DNA from: Deltaproteobacteria bacterium
GTDB lineage: Bacteria > Desulfobacterota_B > Binatia > Bin18
Assembly (NCBI GenBank): GCA_012271025.1
Contig: JAAXHF010000400.1
Span: forward strand, 1 to 19,605
Length of the DNA: 19,605 nt
Direction: 5' to 3'
Shown here: in pieces, positions 4,145 to 19,551 of the stretch
How the letters are laid out: each line of letters begins with the position of its first letter
Position numbering within the stretch: position 1 is the stretch's first letter
Made by a program: the position numbers and the translations under genes
Notes under the pieces: generated by a model
What the model was told of the DNA's origin: nothing
Databases searched by the model: none
The model's input: only the letters and a program-made list of their open reading frames with translations

Positions 4145-4546
4145 ATGGGAGCCGCAGAAAACAAACAGACGATCCGCGACGCGTTCACGGCCTGGACCAA
4201 CGGCGACGGCACGGCCTTCTTCAACACCCTGGCCGACGATGTGCGCTGGACGGTGATCGGCACCAGCCCGGTGTCCCGGACCTATACCAGCCGTCAGGCA
4301 TTTCTGGAGGGAGCGGCCAAGCCGCTGAACGCCAGGCTGGCCGGGCCGATCAGCCCAACCGTGGTCAGTGTCATCGGCGAGGGCGACAGCGTAGTCCTCC
4401 AGTGGGAGGGCCGGGCCACCACAAAGTCCGGCAAACCCTACAACAACAGCTATTGCTGGGTCATGCGCCTGGCCAACGGCAAGGTCGTCGAAGGCACGGC
4501 CTACATCGACACCGAGCTGGTCTCGGAGTTGTGGAAAGAGGCGTAG
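4145..4546 (+). CDS. NTF2/SnoaL-like family protein
   Basis: A 133-residue protein of the nuclear-transport-factor-2/ketosteroid-isomerase-like fold. It opens with the helix ENKQTIRDAFTAWTNGD, then FFNTLADDVRWTVIG, a conserved loop-and-strand pair in this family. The C-terminal half is the usual curved sheet (VVSVIGEGDSVVLQWEGRA, then YNNSYCWVMRLANGKVVEGTAYIDTELV). Such proteins are small isomerases, lyases or stress-bound folds and often accompany luciferase-like oxidoreductases. The ATG has AAGGAG six bases upstream. It lies 97 bases after the oxidoreductase, separated by the heptamer arrays, so it may be read through or independently expressed. Its last 66 coding bases and 31 bases beyond are repeated at 5161-5257. 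The fold is confident; the reaction is not. Confidence 0.85.
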   Translation: MGAAENKQTIRDAFTAWTNGDGTAFFNTLADDVRWTVIGTSPVSRTYTSRQAFLEGAAKPLNARLAGPISPTVVSVIGEGDSVVLQWEGRATTKSGKPYNNSYCWVMRLANGKVVEGTAYIDTELVSELWKEA

Positions 4547-5160: not shown

Positions 5161-5226
5161 AAGGTCACCGAAGGCACGGCCTACATCGACACCGAGCTGG
5201 TCTCGGAGCTGCGGAAAGAGGCATAA
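5161..5226 (+). pseudogene. Duplicated C-terminal fragment of the NTF2-like gene
   Basis: These 22 codons, ending in TAA, encode EGTAYIDTELVSELRKEA, the same tail as the gene at 4145-4546 with one visible change, Trp to Arg; the Leu change (TTG to CTG) is silent. The match continues 31 bases past the stop, to 5257. There is no start codon with a ribosome site and no upstream part of the gene, so this is a remnant of a tandem duplication whose 5' portion was lost or replaced by the gene at 4650-5129. Confidence 0.8.
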
Positions 5227-10087: not shown

Positions 10088-10118
10088 ATGTCAAAGGGCA
10101 AATGTCAAAGGGCAAATG
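10088..10118. repeat. Tandem 14-bp repeat
   Basis: ATGTCAAAGGGCAA occurs twice in tandem (10088-10101 and 10102-10115), followed by a further ATG. The core GTCAAAGGGCAAA recurs, inverted, in the spacer at 17721-17755, so it is a dispersed short repeat of this genome. Confidence 0.85.
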
Positions 10119-10176
10119 TAGGGGATGGCGTATCACTTTGAAATTTTCTTTTCGCGGAGGACTCTCCTGGCGCAGC

Positions 10177-10390: not shown

Positions 10391-11257
10391 ATGCGCACCA
10401 AACTTCAGTCTCTGGACGCCGCCGCAGCCAGCGTGCAGGCCGGCAGCCTGCTGGGTATGACCTCGGCCGTCCTCGACAATGCGCCCATGGCTTTCTTGCG
10501 GGCGCTGGTCAGACGCCAGATCGGTGGCCTGGGGCTGGTGACCCTGACCGGCGGCGGACTGAACGCCGATCTCCTGATCGGCGCCGGACTCATCGACAGC
10601 TACGAGACCTGTTCCTGTACCCTCGTCCCCTACGGTCCGGCGCCCAACTTTCAGCGCGCCGTGCGGGCCGGTCTGATCAACATGAAGGACAGCACTTGAG
10701 GGGTGCTGTACAGCATGATCCAGGCTGGATCGATGGGCCTCCCGTTTGTGGCCGTGCGCGGGCTGCTGGGCTCCGATATGCTGACATATCGGCCCGACCT
10801 GCTCGTTCAGGGCAACCCCTTCAAGCCCGGCGAACAGGTGGTGGTGGCTCAGCCGATCCGGCCCGATGTGGCCGTTTTCCACGCCCTACAAGCCGACCGC
10901 TGGGGCAACGCGATTACGCCCGGCCCCCGGGACGATGTCATGCTGGCCCGCGCCGCCCGGCGGGTGATTGTCACCGCCGAGACCGTGGTCGATACCCGAC
11001 TGACACCTGCCGACGCACCCCACGACACCTTCCTGCCCGCCATCGACGTTGACGTGGTAGCAGAAGCGCCGCTGGGCGCTCACCCGTGCGGCCTGGGCCG
11101 GCTGTACGAGCACGACCCGGACCACTGCCGGACCTATCTGGCCGCAGCCGCACACCCGCACGAGTTCCACGCCTACCTCGACCGCTACGTCTTTGGCGCC
11201 GCCGACCACGCCGTCTACCTCAGCCGGGTGGACGACACGCGCCAGGCCGGAGTCTAG
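10391..11257 (+). CDS. CoA-transferase subunit A with in-frame TGA at codon 103 (candidate selenoprotein or nonsense mutant)
   Basis: Read through one TGA (10697-10699), this frame gives 288 residues, a normal length for a class I 3-oxoacid/glutaconate-type CoA-transferase alpha subunit. Before the TGA come an N-terminal GSLLGMTSAVLDNAPMAFLRAL segment and the GGGLNADLLIGAGLIDSYETC glycine-rich core. After it, in the same frame, come QAGSMGLPFVAVRGLLGSD, IRPDVAVFHALQADRWGN and the C-terminal TFLPAIDVDVVAEAPLGAHPCG. Both halves are needed for one fold, so the TGA falls mid-protein, between DST and GVLYSM. A hairpin with a GGC loop starts its loop 23 bases downstream. Subunit B follows after three bases. 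Possibilities are selenocysteine, a nonsense mutation, a sequencing error, or a split gene restarting at GTG 10703. The start lacks a ribosome site. The family is sure; TGA decoding is not. Confidence 0.8.
10714..10735 (+). promoter_or_regulatory. Candidate bacterial SECIS hairpin after the CoA-transferase TGA
   Basis: GATCCA (10717-10722) pairs with TGGATC (10726-10731) around a GGC loop, and CAT (10714-10716) can pair with ATG (10733-10735) past one bulged G. The loop begins 23 bases after the TGA and starts with G, which satisfies the permissive bacterial SECIS model (loop 16-37 bases from UGA, early G). Such hairpins also arise by chance in GC-rich coding DNA. Confidence 0.4.
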
Positions 11258-11260
11258 GCC

Positions 11261-11989
11261 GTGCCAGCCGCTTATACCCCCCAGGAGCTGATGGCGGTGC
11301 TGATCGCCCGTCAGGTTCGGGACGGGGAAACCGTGGCGGTCGGAGCCGTCTCGCCCATCCCGGCTGCGGGCTGCGTGCTGGCCGAGCAGACCCACGCGCC
11401 CGACATCAGGCTGATCATTCTCGACTGCGAAGCGTACTATCCGTTCTCCGGCGGCAGCAGCGCGTTGCACTTTCTGGCCCAGCGGGGAGAGCTGGACCTG
11501 TTTTTCCTGAGCGGCATACAGATCGACCGACACGCCAACGTCAACCTGCATGTGATTGGCGACTACCGGGCACCCGACCGCCGGCTGGCCGGGGCGTATG
11601 GCTCGGCCATGCTGTACTACATGGCCGGCCGTGTCATCCTGTTTCGGACCGAGCACTCGCGGCGCAGCCTGGTCGAACAGGTCGATTTCGTGACCAGCCC
11701 GGGCACCAGCCCAGACTCGGTTCACCGCCCGGGCGGCCCGAGTCTGCTGATTACGCCCAAAGCCGTGCTGGAGTGGCACCCTGACGGCTGGGCGTGCCGC
11801 AGCATTCACCCCGGCTCGGACGTGCAGGACATCCGCGATAACACCGGCTTTGCCCTGGCCCTGTCCCCTCCCCCGCCGACCACCCCCCCGCCGAGCGAAC
11901 AAGAACTGGCGATCCTGCGCGGCCGGGTCCGGACCAAACTCGACCGCAGCTATCCCAGCTTTTTTGCCCGGCACGTCCTGCCCAGCTGA
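11261..11989 (+). CDS. CoA-transferase subunit B
   Basis: A 242-residue beta subunit of a class I CoA-transferase, which moves CoA between carboxylic acids through a glutamyl-CoA thioester. The likely catalytic Glu is E57 in LIILDCEAYYPF, close to the position of the active-site Glu in glutaconate CoA-transferase B. Other family blocks are ELDLFFLSGIQIDRHANVNL (residues ~75-95), AYGSAMLYYMAGRVILF and the late ITPKAVLEW. A proline-rich stretch, PPPPTTPPP near residue 210, precedes the C-terminal helix. The GTG start has GGAG eight bases upstream, inside the end of subunit A, with only three bases between the genes. An intact B subunit with an active-site Glu argues that the A/B pair is still selected. 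The substrate is unknown. Confidence 0.88.
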   Translation: MPAAYTPQELMAVLIARQVRDGETVAVGAVSPIPAAGCVLAEQTHAPDIRLIILDCEAYYPFSGGSSALHFLAQRGELDLFFLSGIQIDRHANVNLHVIGDYRAPDRRLAGAYGSAMLYYMAGRVILFRTEHSRRSLVEQVDFVTSPGTSPDSVHRPGGPSLLITPKAVLEWHPDGWACRSIHPGSDVQDIRDNTGFALALSPPPPTTPPPSEQELAILRGRVRTKLDRSYPSFFARHVLPS

Positions 11990-17720: not shown

Positions 17721-17755
17721 GACATTTGACTTTTGCCCTTTGACTTTTGACTTTT
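17721..17755. repeat. Short tandem repeats of TTTGACTTTT type
   Basis: Read on the minus strand this is a run of AAAAGTC/AAAGGGC-like heptamers sharing GTCAAAGGGCAAA with the tandem repeat at 10088-10118. It lies in the 122-base gap between the selenoprotein stop and the Rid-family start. Confidence 0.7.
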
Positions 17756-17798
17756 CTTACCGAGGCCAAGCATGAGGGCTGGCCCCTACAGCTTCAAA

Positions 17799-18350
17799 TC
17801 AGTCAGCCGCCACAGCCTGGAGAGCTGAACGCCCCAGCTCCAGGTGGCGGGCGATCTCGGCAAACGCGGCCTGGGCGCGTTGACTGAAGTCCTCGGCCGT
17901 TTCACCCGCTTTGAGATGCGGGATGACCACCAGCGGGATGTCCGGCATGGCCATGGCCTTGGCCTGATCCTGGGCGGCGACCAGAAAAGTATCGAGGGTG
18001 ACCGCCACCGCAGGCACGCCACGCTTCCACAGTTTGGCCGAGTCGAGCATACAGCCCGACGTGCACGAGCCTCAAGCGCACAGGCCGACCACAGCCTGGT
18101 GCGAGGCTGCGGCCAGCTCGTCAATCAGCTGCTCGGGCGACGGCCGGGTAAACACCGGCTTGCGCCAGATTTTGACCTCGCTGACCGCACCCTCGGCGGC
18201 CAGCAACTCTTTCAGCCGTGCAAAGAACAGGCCGGCGATCTCGCCGCCAAACCCGTTATTGAGCAGACCAATTGTTCGTCCCTGGGCATCGCTGCCCAGA
18301 GCCTTGGCCGCAAACTGCCGCCGCTCGCCAACCGGGCTCAGTACGCGCAT
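17799..18350 (-). CDS. UGSC-family selenoprotein (in-frame TGA read as selenocysteine)
   Basis: The frame is 183 residues with one TGA (18074-18072) at codon 93. Directly after it comes GSCTSGCMLDSAKLWKRGVPAVAV, the Sec-Gly-Ser-Cys signature of the UGSC-containing selenoprotein family described from marine metagenomes. Upstream, IGLLNNGFGGEIAGLFFARL and the strand AVVGLCA leading into the TGA fit the family; downstream, PDIPLVVIPH is its usual late strand. Sec93 and Cys96 form a U-x-x-C redox pair and C100 is near. Reading ends at TGA 18074 only if selenocysteine cannot be inserted. ATG 18350 has AGGAG six bases upstream and lies nine bases after the 349-residue gene's stop. The biochemical role is unknown; a thiol redox enzyme is inferred. 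The selA/B/C/D genes must lie elsewhere. Confidence 0.9.
18042..18060 (-). promoter_or_regulatory. Candidate bacterial SECIS element of the UGSC gene
   Basis: On the minus strand GTCGGGC (18060-18054) pairs with GCTCGAC (18048-18042), seven pairs including one G-U, around the loop TGTAT (18053-18049). The loop starts 18 bases after the TGA and has G at its second position, as the bacterial SECIS model requires. It lies inside the coding sequence, as expected in bacteria. Confidence 0.7.
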
Positions 18351-18359
18351 AGCTTCTCC

Positions 18360-19409
18360 TCAGGCTGATGTGATTTCCCTGGTCACGGCAAAACCGCCCA
18401 GGCCGCCCCAGCCGGGGCACACCGCCGCAAAGTAGGTATCTCCGCCGGCAACCATAATGTGAATGTCCCGAGGCCGGGCGGCAATCGGGACCGGATAGTC
18501 GTCGTTGTCCTGTTCGACCCACTTGGGCCAGAACTGACCGGTGATGCCCAGCGCGTCAACCGCCTTGATCTGCCCCAGCCGAGCCCGGACGTGTTCCCAC
18601 AGATAGACCCGAATCTCGACCTTGGACCAGCCCTCGGCCTCGAACTGGCGCGCCTGCCAGGGGTTGAGGACGACCAGACTCTCGCCCATGGCGTGCGTAT
18701 TATTGCTGCCCAGGCTGCTCAGCGCGCTGACCAGGCAGCTCAGCATCTGTTTGACCGTGCCGTAGCACAGGACCGAGTGGGGCGCCTCGCAGCTGAACAC
18801 GGTCACCGCGTTGCTGCCCGCAGGGATACCCCGCTCGACCGCAAACGGCTCCCACGGGCTGGCCGCCTCGTGCTCGGCAATACAGTAGCTCCACTTGCCG
18901 GGATGGGCCTGGGTGGATTTATCCACCTCACCCGGGATATTCCCGCCCAGATTCCACAGGATCAGCCGAATCGCTCGCCCGACCGTGCCGTTGGCCCGAA
19001 AGCCGCTGCCGAACACGCCGTCGCCGGCGTTAAAGCCGAGCTGTTGGGCAATCGGGCCGTGGACGATGACCAGGGGTACACATGAGTGGGTCGTGGTCTG
19101 CACGCCGTTGAGGTTGTGCTCGGGTTCCAGCATGGCCTCGACCGCAGCCAGCACGATTGGAAAATATGCGGGCCGACAGCCGGCCATGACACTGTTAATG
19201 GCCAGCTTCTCAACCGTGGCAATGCCCTGGGCGGGCGGGATTTCACCGATTTCTTCCTCAGGTCGGCGGCCCGAGGCGCGCACCATGCGCTCGACCAACT
19301 CTTCGGTGGGCGGAACAATCGCCAGGCCATCGGTCCAGCCCCGCTCAAAAAAGAGTTCGACCGCCGCGTGATAATCGGCAACATCAATGGCTTCGGCACG
19401 AAACTCCAT
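18360..19409 (-). CDS. Uncharacterised 349-residue protein, operon partner of the UGSC selenoprotein
   Basis: I do not recognise a characterised family. The protein is soluble, without signal peptide. Notable blocks are FFERGWTDGLAIVPPT near residue 20, AINSVMAGCRPAYFPIVLAA (C78), GVQTTTHSCVPLVIVHGP (C110, with THSC), NAGDGVFGSGFRANGTVGRAIRL, then FSCEAPHSVLCYG, and a C terminus with MVAGGD and CPGWGG. The paired, well-spaced Cys and the THSC motif could be redox or thiolate-binding sites. ATG 19409 has GGGAGAG in front; the longer in-frame start at 19430 is less well placed. The UGSC gene starts nine bases after its stop, with the selenoprotein's ribosome site between them, so the pair likely works together. 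Function is inferred from context only. Confidence 0.75.
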   Translation of the reverse strand: MEFRAEAIDVADYHAAVELFFERGWTDGLAIVPPTEELVERMVRASGRRPEEEIGEIPPAQGIATVEKLAINSVMAGCRPAYFPIVLAAVEAMLEPEHNLNGVQTTTHSCVPLVIVHGPIAQQLGFNAGDGVFGSGFRANGTVGRAIRLILWNLGGNIPGEVDKSTQAHPGKWSYCIAEHEAASPWEPFAVERGIPAGSNAVTVFSCEAPHSVLCYGTVKQMLSCLVSALSSLGSNNTHAMGESLVVLNPWQARQFEAEGWSKVEIRVYLWEHVRARLGQIKAVDALGITGQFWPKWVEQDNDDYPVPIAARPRDIHIMVAGGDTYFAAVCPGWGGLGGFAVTREITSA

Positions 19410-19551
19410 GTCTGCTCTCCCGCCCCCCATCCCTACGTCAGGCGCTCAGTCGGCGTCAAGGCACCCGAGCGGGCGGTACTGTTTCGGTTTGGAAATGGGC
19501 ACTCCGTATAGTCCCCAGCGGGCTGCTCTCATGCCAGTCCTCACGTCGGGA

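Follow-up and report, generated by a model that had tools for sequence, protein, structure and literature searches.

A probable selenoprotein family with the class I CoA-transferase fold and selenocysteine at a putative catalytic position

Related enzymes and the two-subunit locus

The nearest solved fold to the protein described here is that of IpdAB, the COCHEA-CoA hydrolase of steroid ring degradation, which is represented by structures from Rhodococcus jostii (6co6, 6co9, 6coj) and by its M. tuberculosis counterpart (6con). According to excerpts of PMC5380842, IpdAB showed no CoA transfer between acetyl-, propionyl- or succinyl-CoA and free acids, and its B subunit has Gly57 where the B subunit of our locus has Leu54. 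The best sequence match in the PDB is GctAB (1poi; E 2.4e-31 for subunit A and 5.9e-23 for subunit B). The residue Glu54 of GctB is missing from our subunit B, and GctA has Gln at the column that we assign to selenocysteine (Sec). A further relative is the 3-methylglutaconyl-CoA decarboxylase AibA/AibB (5mzw), which carries Cys on B, at the Glu54 column, and Gly at the Sec column of AibA, whereas in the present family Sec or Cys is placed on A and the window's B has Leu54. The UGSC family (NF041046) resembles our case in that one of its genes, also with an in-frame TGA, lies in the same window, but it is another protein, of an already known selenoprotein family (PMC13188914, Table 1).

The window, by which we mean the whole stretch of 19,605 nucleotides analysed, contains two adjoining genes for subunits A and B (Table 1). 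PF01144 is matched in both, and the fold comparison of A agrees with the class I CoA-transferase fold. The initial annotation had described a single TGA at codon 103 of A with the same frame on either side and an intact subunit B three bases downstream; both points were confirmed, with 102 codons ahead of the TGA, 185 behind it and the B frame beginning three bases past the TAG of A. The same strand carries a gene for a PLP enzyme from 11999 onwards. At E 0.001, subunit A is matched by no more than two NCBIfam models; TIGR02429 scores best with the window protein, at 31.5 bits out of 128.5. In a predicted model, residue 103 is the first residue of a helix that spans residues 103-115. The name CoA-transferase, given initially, is retained for the fold and not for the enzyme class: we prefer "CoA-transferase fold" because the B subunit lacks the catalytic Glu, Leu54 (11420-11422) being found at the position of GctB Glu54. 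An altered genetic code with TGA as a sense codon throughout was considered and rejected, as TGA is the terminal stop of the window's B and of several further A and B genes.

Table 1. Positions of the main features within the window
Feature	Position	Strand	Details
Subunit A gene (PF01144)	10391..11257	+	288 residues with putative Sec103; stop TAG
In-frame TGA, codon 103	10697..10699	+	TGA in 22 of 22 group genes, window included
bSECIS-like hairpin with an apical GGC loop on a stem of 6 bp	10717..10731	+	GATCCA-GGC-TGGATC; stem 10717-10722 paired with 10726-10731, loop 10723-10725; TGA-to-loop 23 nt
Subunit B gene (PF01144)	11261..11989	+	start GTG; end TGA, serving as true stop
UGSC-family gene	17799-18350	-	in-frame TGA 18074-18072; NCBIfam NF041046

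Comparison of 20 gene neighbourhoods showed a B-type frame beside A in 19 of 21 loci; nothing beyond A and B was widely shared, and no substrate was indicated. In two loci a threonyl-tRNA editing-type domain (PF08915), which is archaea-specific by its Pfam description, is coded just upstream of subunit A (L068, 9808-10230; L001, 5270-5695), and the cluster also occurs in L069 and L076. Within the window, similar intergenic repeat units of the gtcaaagggcaaa type lie near both Sec genes (10088-10120 on the plus strand and 17721-17760 on the minus strand) and possibly represent a dispersed repeat. Two nearby frames share the peptide EGTAYIDTELVSEL near their ends (4490-4543 and 5170-5223), which looks like a partial duplication. 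Directly upstream of the UGSC-family gene there is a frame of 356 residues on the minus strand (18363-19430), for which no Pfam or NCBIfam match was obtained at E 0.001.

Conservation of the in-frame TGA and of the hairpin behind it

The window shares its TGA at codon 103 with 21 further genomes, the aligned column having been checked for each, and neither TAA nor TAG occurs at this codon among the 22 genes of the TGA group. The TGA-bearing relatives span 34-96% protein identity to the window. A scan of GTDB contigs yielded five relatives, four of them close (60-70% identity) and with TGA103, and a fifth (26%) without it. Two overlapping samples, apparently from one phylum, so that other phyla are little covered, were searched in greater number: 198 genomes of the phylum of one relative, with matches at E 1e-40 or better in 11, and 247 genomes in a profile search, with matches in 70. 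All 11 best matches of the former contained exactly one in-frame stop, a TGA at query position 103, and a twelfth match was a paralog with no in-frame stop. In the profile search, 14 matches had one TGA and scored above most paralogs; the other listed matches had open frames except for one distant homolog, G201:C53:16762-17562, which has a single in-frame TAG. A class search of 148 genomes found matches in 11 genomes, 8 of them carrying TGA, and in 299 genomes of another phylum the one match at E 1e-75 or better was a Cys form, in the centre genome itself.

The separate genome G556 (locus L054) codes for a protein 96% identical to that of the window and has the same TGA, which speaks against a sequencing read error. 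In the six pairs computed, pN/pS was about 0.2-0.4 before as well as after the TGA, which indicates purifying selection on both halves of the gene.

A search of protein databases returned 474 homologs, of which the best 120 were examined. As many as 118 of these start at query positions 106, 109, 115 or 122 (BLAST offset), just past the TGA, and many of the shortened homologs are named glutaconate CoA-transferase subunit A by JGI; the remaining two, P0005 and P0092, cover the full length, with Cys at position 103. We searched again with residues 1-135 only, a region that the shortened proteins can hardly match, and obtained 14 proteins. Six were short (186-188 residues, 22% of the region matched) and eight were of full or near-full length, with Cys in five (P0122-P0125 and P0128) and Glu in three (P0126, P0127 and P0129). 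Taken together, 10 database homologs of full or near-full length were examined, seven with Cys at column 103 and three with Glu; the gene of locus L051 has Cys as well. The initial annotation had proposed that TGA or Cys in independent relatives would favour Sec, and that Arg, Gly, Trp or Glu with no Cys or TGA at all would speak against it. The 21 additional genomes have TGA, and the closest relatives of full length have Cys; Glu, Asn and His occur at this column too, but in other clades of the superfamily.

The tree was a quick maximum-likelihood one of 52 rows, in which the Asn, His and locus-derived Glu rows were without insert-column residues and the three database Glu proteins were trimmed to their last 280 residues. 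In it, the 22 Sec rows and 7 Cys rows formed one group (SH-aLRT 94), with the Cys protein P0128 placed outside. The Sec label required 3 changes on the tree, compared to a mean of 16.9 after shuffling. Because the Sec gene L057 is sister to the Cys protein P0092 (support 99), it appears that Sec and Cys have been exchanged more than once.

According to section 5 of PMC13188914, a bacterial SECIS element has a loop of 3-9 nt, a stem of 4-16 bp, G in the first two positions of its loop, a spacing of 16-37 nt and an MFE of at most -7.5 kcal/mol. The window hairpin agrees with these rules, having a loop of 3, a stem of 6, GG and a spacing of 23, and its MFE is -8.2 kcal/mol for the 24-nt core and -15.8 kcal/mol for 49 nt. 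It had been said initially that the hairpin starts 23 bases after the TGA, at a distance within the bacterial range. The distance does fall within 16-37 nt, but it is the GGC loop that lies at 23 nt, and the stem begins 17 nt past the TGA. All 22 TGA genes have the stem at equal distance and the GGC loop 23 nt past the TGA. Among them 129 of 132 pair cells are standard, and 11 cells are changed on both sides; none of 500 shuffles matched the observed pairing or covariation score, and slid registers of the hairpin were at most 51% paired. In the first 16 Sec genes, six of six pairs were formed in 13 and five of six in three, and L006 was the sole one with a 24-nt core above the MFE limit (-6.0). 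The hairpin is lost in the Cys gene L051 (2 of 6 pairs), which is the only Cys gene with DNA and thus a control of n=1. When the window gene was recoded synonymously 2000 times, six of six pairs arose in 1.6% of the recodings.

Folding of the single window hairpin gave no signal against dinucleotide shuffles (z 0.02; 92 of 200 shuffles folded equally well or better), and the Rfam scan of the window gave no match over gathering. The hairpin stands above chance because of the comparison across genes, not because of the stability of its own fold. Synonymous conservation, which the initial annotation had named as a sign of Sec if present at 10714-10735, was highest there: six-codon windows within residues 108-115 ranked first in all three comparisons, namely within each clade (281 windows for clade 1, 276 for clade 2) and across the two (275).

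The tRNA-Sec model RF01852 scored over its cut-off in 20 of the 21 TGA genomes (67.6-78.3 bits) and in 5 of 14 control genomes; in G061 the best match had 45.6 bits against a cut-off of 47, which is the level of secondary matches elsewhere. SelB (TIGR00475) was over the cut-off in 18 of the 21 and in 2 of the 14 controls, the exceptions being G037, G097 and G557, and every one of the 21 genomes had tRNA-Sec, SelB or both over the cut-off. SelB is so common in the phylum (175 of the 196 genomes sampled) that its presence is permissive rather than specific. For the window's own genome, the basis for probable Sec decoding is a single gene, that of the UGSC family. It matches NF041046 at E 9.3e-28 but with 97.1 bits against a cut-off of 125, and is perhaps a divergent member of the family.

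The residue at column 103 and its counterpart on subunit B

Aligned to IpdA, column 103 falls on a residue for which 6co6 has Glu and 6coj has Ala. Because 6coj is titled as the E105A variant, we take the Sec column to be the IpdA Glu105 column; where IpdA has this Glu, the window family has Sec or Cys. For 42 distinct A genes we then determined which residue the accompanying B has at the column of GctB Glu54, and 38 pairs were readable; the four A rows with no readable B in this count were L016, L036, L054 and L059, and for the first two of these a distant B supplied the residue. Where A had Asn or His, B had Glu in 16 of 16 pairs. Where A had Sec, Cys or Glu (26 genes), B was readable in 22 and Glu was found in none of them. 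The readable neighbouring B subunits of the Sec genes were non-Glu in 18 of 18, and Leu, Tyr, Phe, Arg, Gly or Ala occupied the column opposite a Sec subunit A. This complementarity has a Fisher p of 4e-11, which serves as a guide only, because the rows are related and the value overstates their independence.

The reading of the B column depends on the alignment. L046 and L047 have Asp there when the insert columns are dropped and Glu in the other alignment, and their raw sequence (FFETGG) bears out Glu; the alignment of L051 at this column is less certain than that of the others. The Glu-type rows L040/L060 and L044 are outside the Sec/Cys group in the tree. A catalytic residue on the A side together with loss of the B-side Glu is perhaps seen in three lineages, the placement of L044, a long branch, being unsure.

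Two loci, L072 in G194 and L073 in G238, have a Sec subunit A and no adjacent subunit B in the stretch examined. No B occurred within 19 kb (G194) and 13 kb (G238) around A, and each genome has one B elsewhere, on another contig, with Ala (G194) and Gly (G238) at the Glu54 column.

There is no other invariant Cys in the A or in the B alignments, and hence no obvious redox partner for Sec103. No UxxC or CxxU motif was found either, the residues following U being mostly GV, PA, PG or GA. Both observations speak against thiol redox chemistry. The initial annotation had considered a Sec that is either redox-active or nucleophilic near the CoA site; the redox part found no Cys partner or motif, and a place in the acyl-CoA slot is supported by the A/B complementarity. 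In one subclade (L070 and L077-L080) redox genes lie nearby, coding for a CMD family protein, a pyridine-nucleotide disulfide oxidoreductase and a 4Fe-4S protein.

Proposed function, alternative explanations and significance

We suggest that subunit A belongs to a heteromeric enzyme of the class I CoA-transferase fold, in which the UGA at codon 103 would be translated as Sec by SelB and tRNA-Sec under the direction of the hairpin 17-31 nt downstream of the UGA. In this superfamily the catalytic group is found either on B, where glutaconate CoA-transferase has its Glu, or on A, where IpdA has Glu and the present family would have Sec or Cys. Sec103, which opens a helix and takes the place of IpdA Glu105, would then be the catalytic residue, and its selenolate may act as nucleophile or acid/base in what is most likely an IpdAB-like acyl-CoA hydrolase, C-C bond hydrolase or lyase. 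These activities seem likelier than that of a classical CoA-transferase because B is without the Glu. Judged from sequence comparison, the subunit A gene almost certainly encodes a selenoprotein, and Sec103 very likely sits in the catalytic slot. The explanation as a whole, a Sec family with the class I fold and a catalytic Sec on A, IpdAB-like rather than a CoA-transferase, we hold with high confidence. The chemistry and the substrate are deduced from the fold and the position. IpdAB-like hydrolysis or C-C cleavage in particular is a serious possibility, somewhat short of probable. More tentatively still, we propose that Sec performs acyl-CoA chemistry and not redox chemistry, with the selenolate on A replacing the catalytic carboxylate, perhaps through an acyl-selenoester, after a move of the catalytic group from B to A.

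Several alternatives were considered. An otherwise intact gene broken by a single TGA is what a nonsense mutation in a decaying gene would look like, and the initial annotation had mentioned this. We regard it as hardly credible, because 21 other genomes, with identities as low as 34%, keep the TGA and never replace it by TAA or TAG, both sides are under purifying selection and an intact B adjoins. It is only slightly less far-fetched that the TGA is a true stop between two separate proteins, the second of which restarts at GTG 10703 or ATG 10715. Gene callers annotate the locus in this way for 118 of the best 120 homologs, and a G-rich stretch past the TGA could be a ribosome site in the window's clade. 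However, the eight-row sister clade has TGACC in six genes, so that the G-rich stretch is not general, and in the predicted model the break would hit the start of a helix within one domain. Two proteins would also leave unexplained why only TGA is used, why relatives have Cys and why a covarying hairpin lies at a fixed distance.

The other alternatives accept Sec and differ in what it does. Sec may be inserted for redox or metal binding rather than acyl-CoA chemistry, as most uncharacterised selenoproteins are held to be likely redox proteins (PMC13188914) and some of our loci have the redox neighbours listed above. We consider this improbable, because the second invariant Cys and the UxxC/CxxU motifs are absent, the redox neighbours occur in 3-4 of 21 loci and in one subclade, with several contigs being short, and the A/B complementarity points to the acyl-CoA catalytic slot. 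A true CoA-transferase, in which Sec instead of the Glu on B would carry the acyl group covalently, has more in its favour: the class I fold and the A+B architecture agree with it, as does the JGI naming of many homologs, and a selenolate could carry an acyl group. Against this, the Glu column of B opposite a Sec subunit A holds six other residues, and IpdAB, also without the B Glu, showed no CoA-transferase activity according to the excerpts of PMC5380842. This reading is therefore unlikely, though less so than a redox role, and we prefer an IpdAB-like enzyme with a catalytic Sec on subunit A.

None of the 119 families or subfamilies in Table 1 of the review PMC13188914 (2026) is a CoA-transferase or a PF01144 protein. 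The main text of this review does not use the words CoA-transferase, CoA transferase or glutaconate, and neither do the accessible portions of the main texts of PMC12013277 (deep-Sep), PMC9312934 and PMC2398784; CoA-transferase is absent from the accessible portion of the main text of PMC8318568. A full-text search of the open-licence literature gave no title or abstract start that reports a Sec-containing CoA-transferase-like protein. The initial remark that no selenocysteine-containing CoA-transferase was known thus agrees with that table and the open-licence literature searched. Sec in a CoA-transferase-like catalytic slot does not seem to have been reported in the open-licence main texts.

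If our explanation is right, a selenoprotein family would be added whose fold is missing from the PMC13188914 table for Sec. The family has been hidden by mis-annotation, the great majority of its best homologs being cut just past the Sec codon. Here Sec would be placed where Glu or Cys is thought to catalyse acyl-CoA chemistry, in a setting with no redox motif, and the family would test the use of Sec in nucleophilic or acid/base chemistry outside redox reactions. A catalytic residue that shifts between B and A would also be a clean case of active-site migration in one superfamily.
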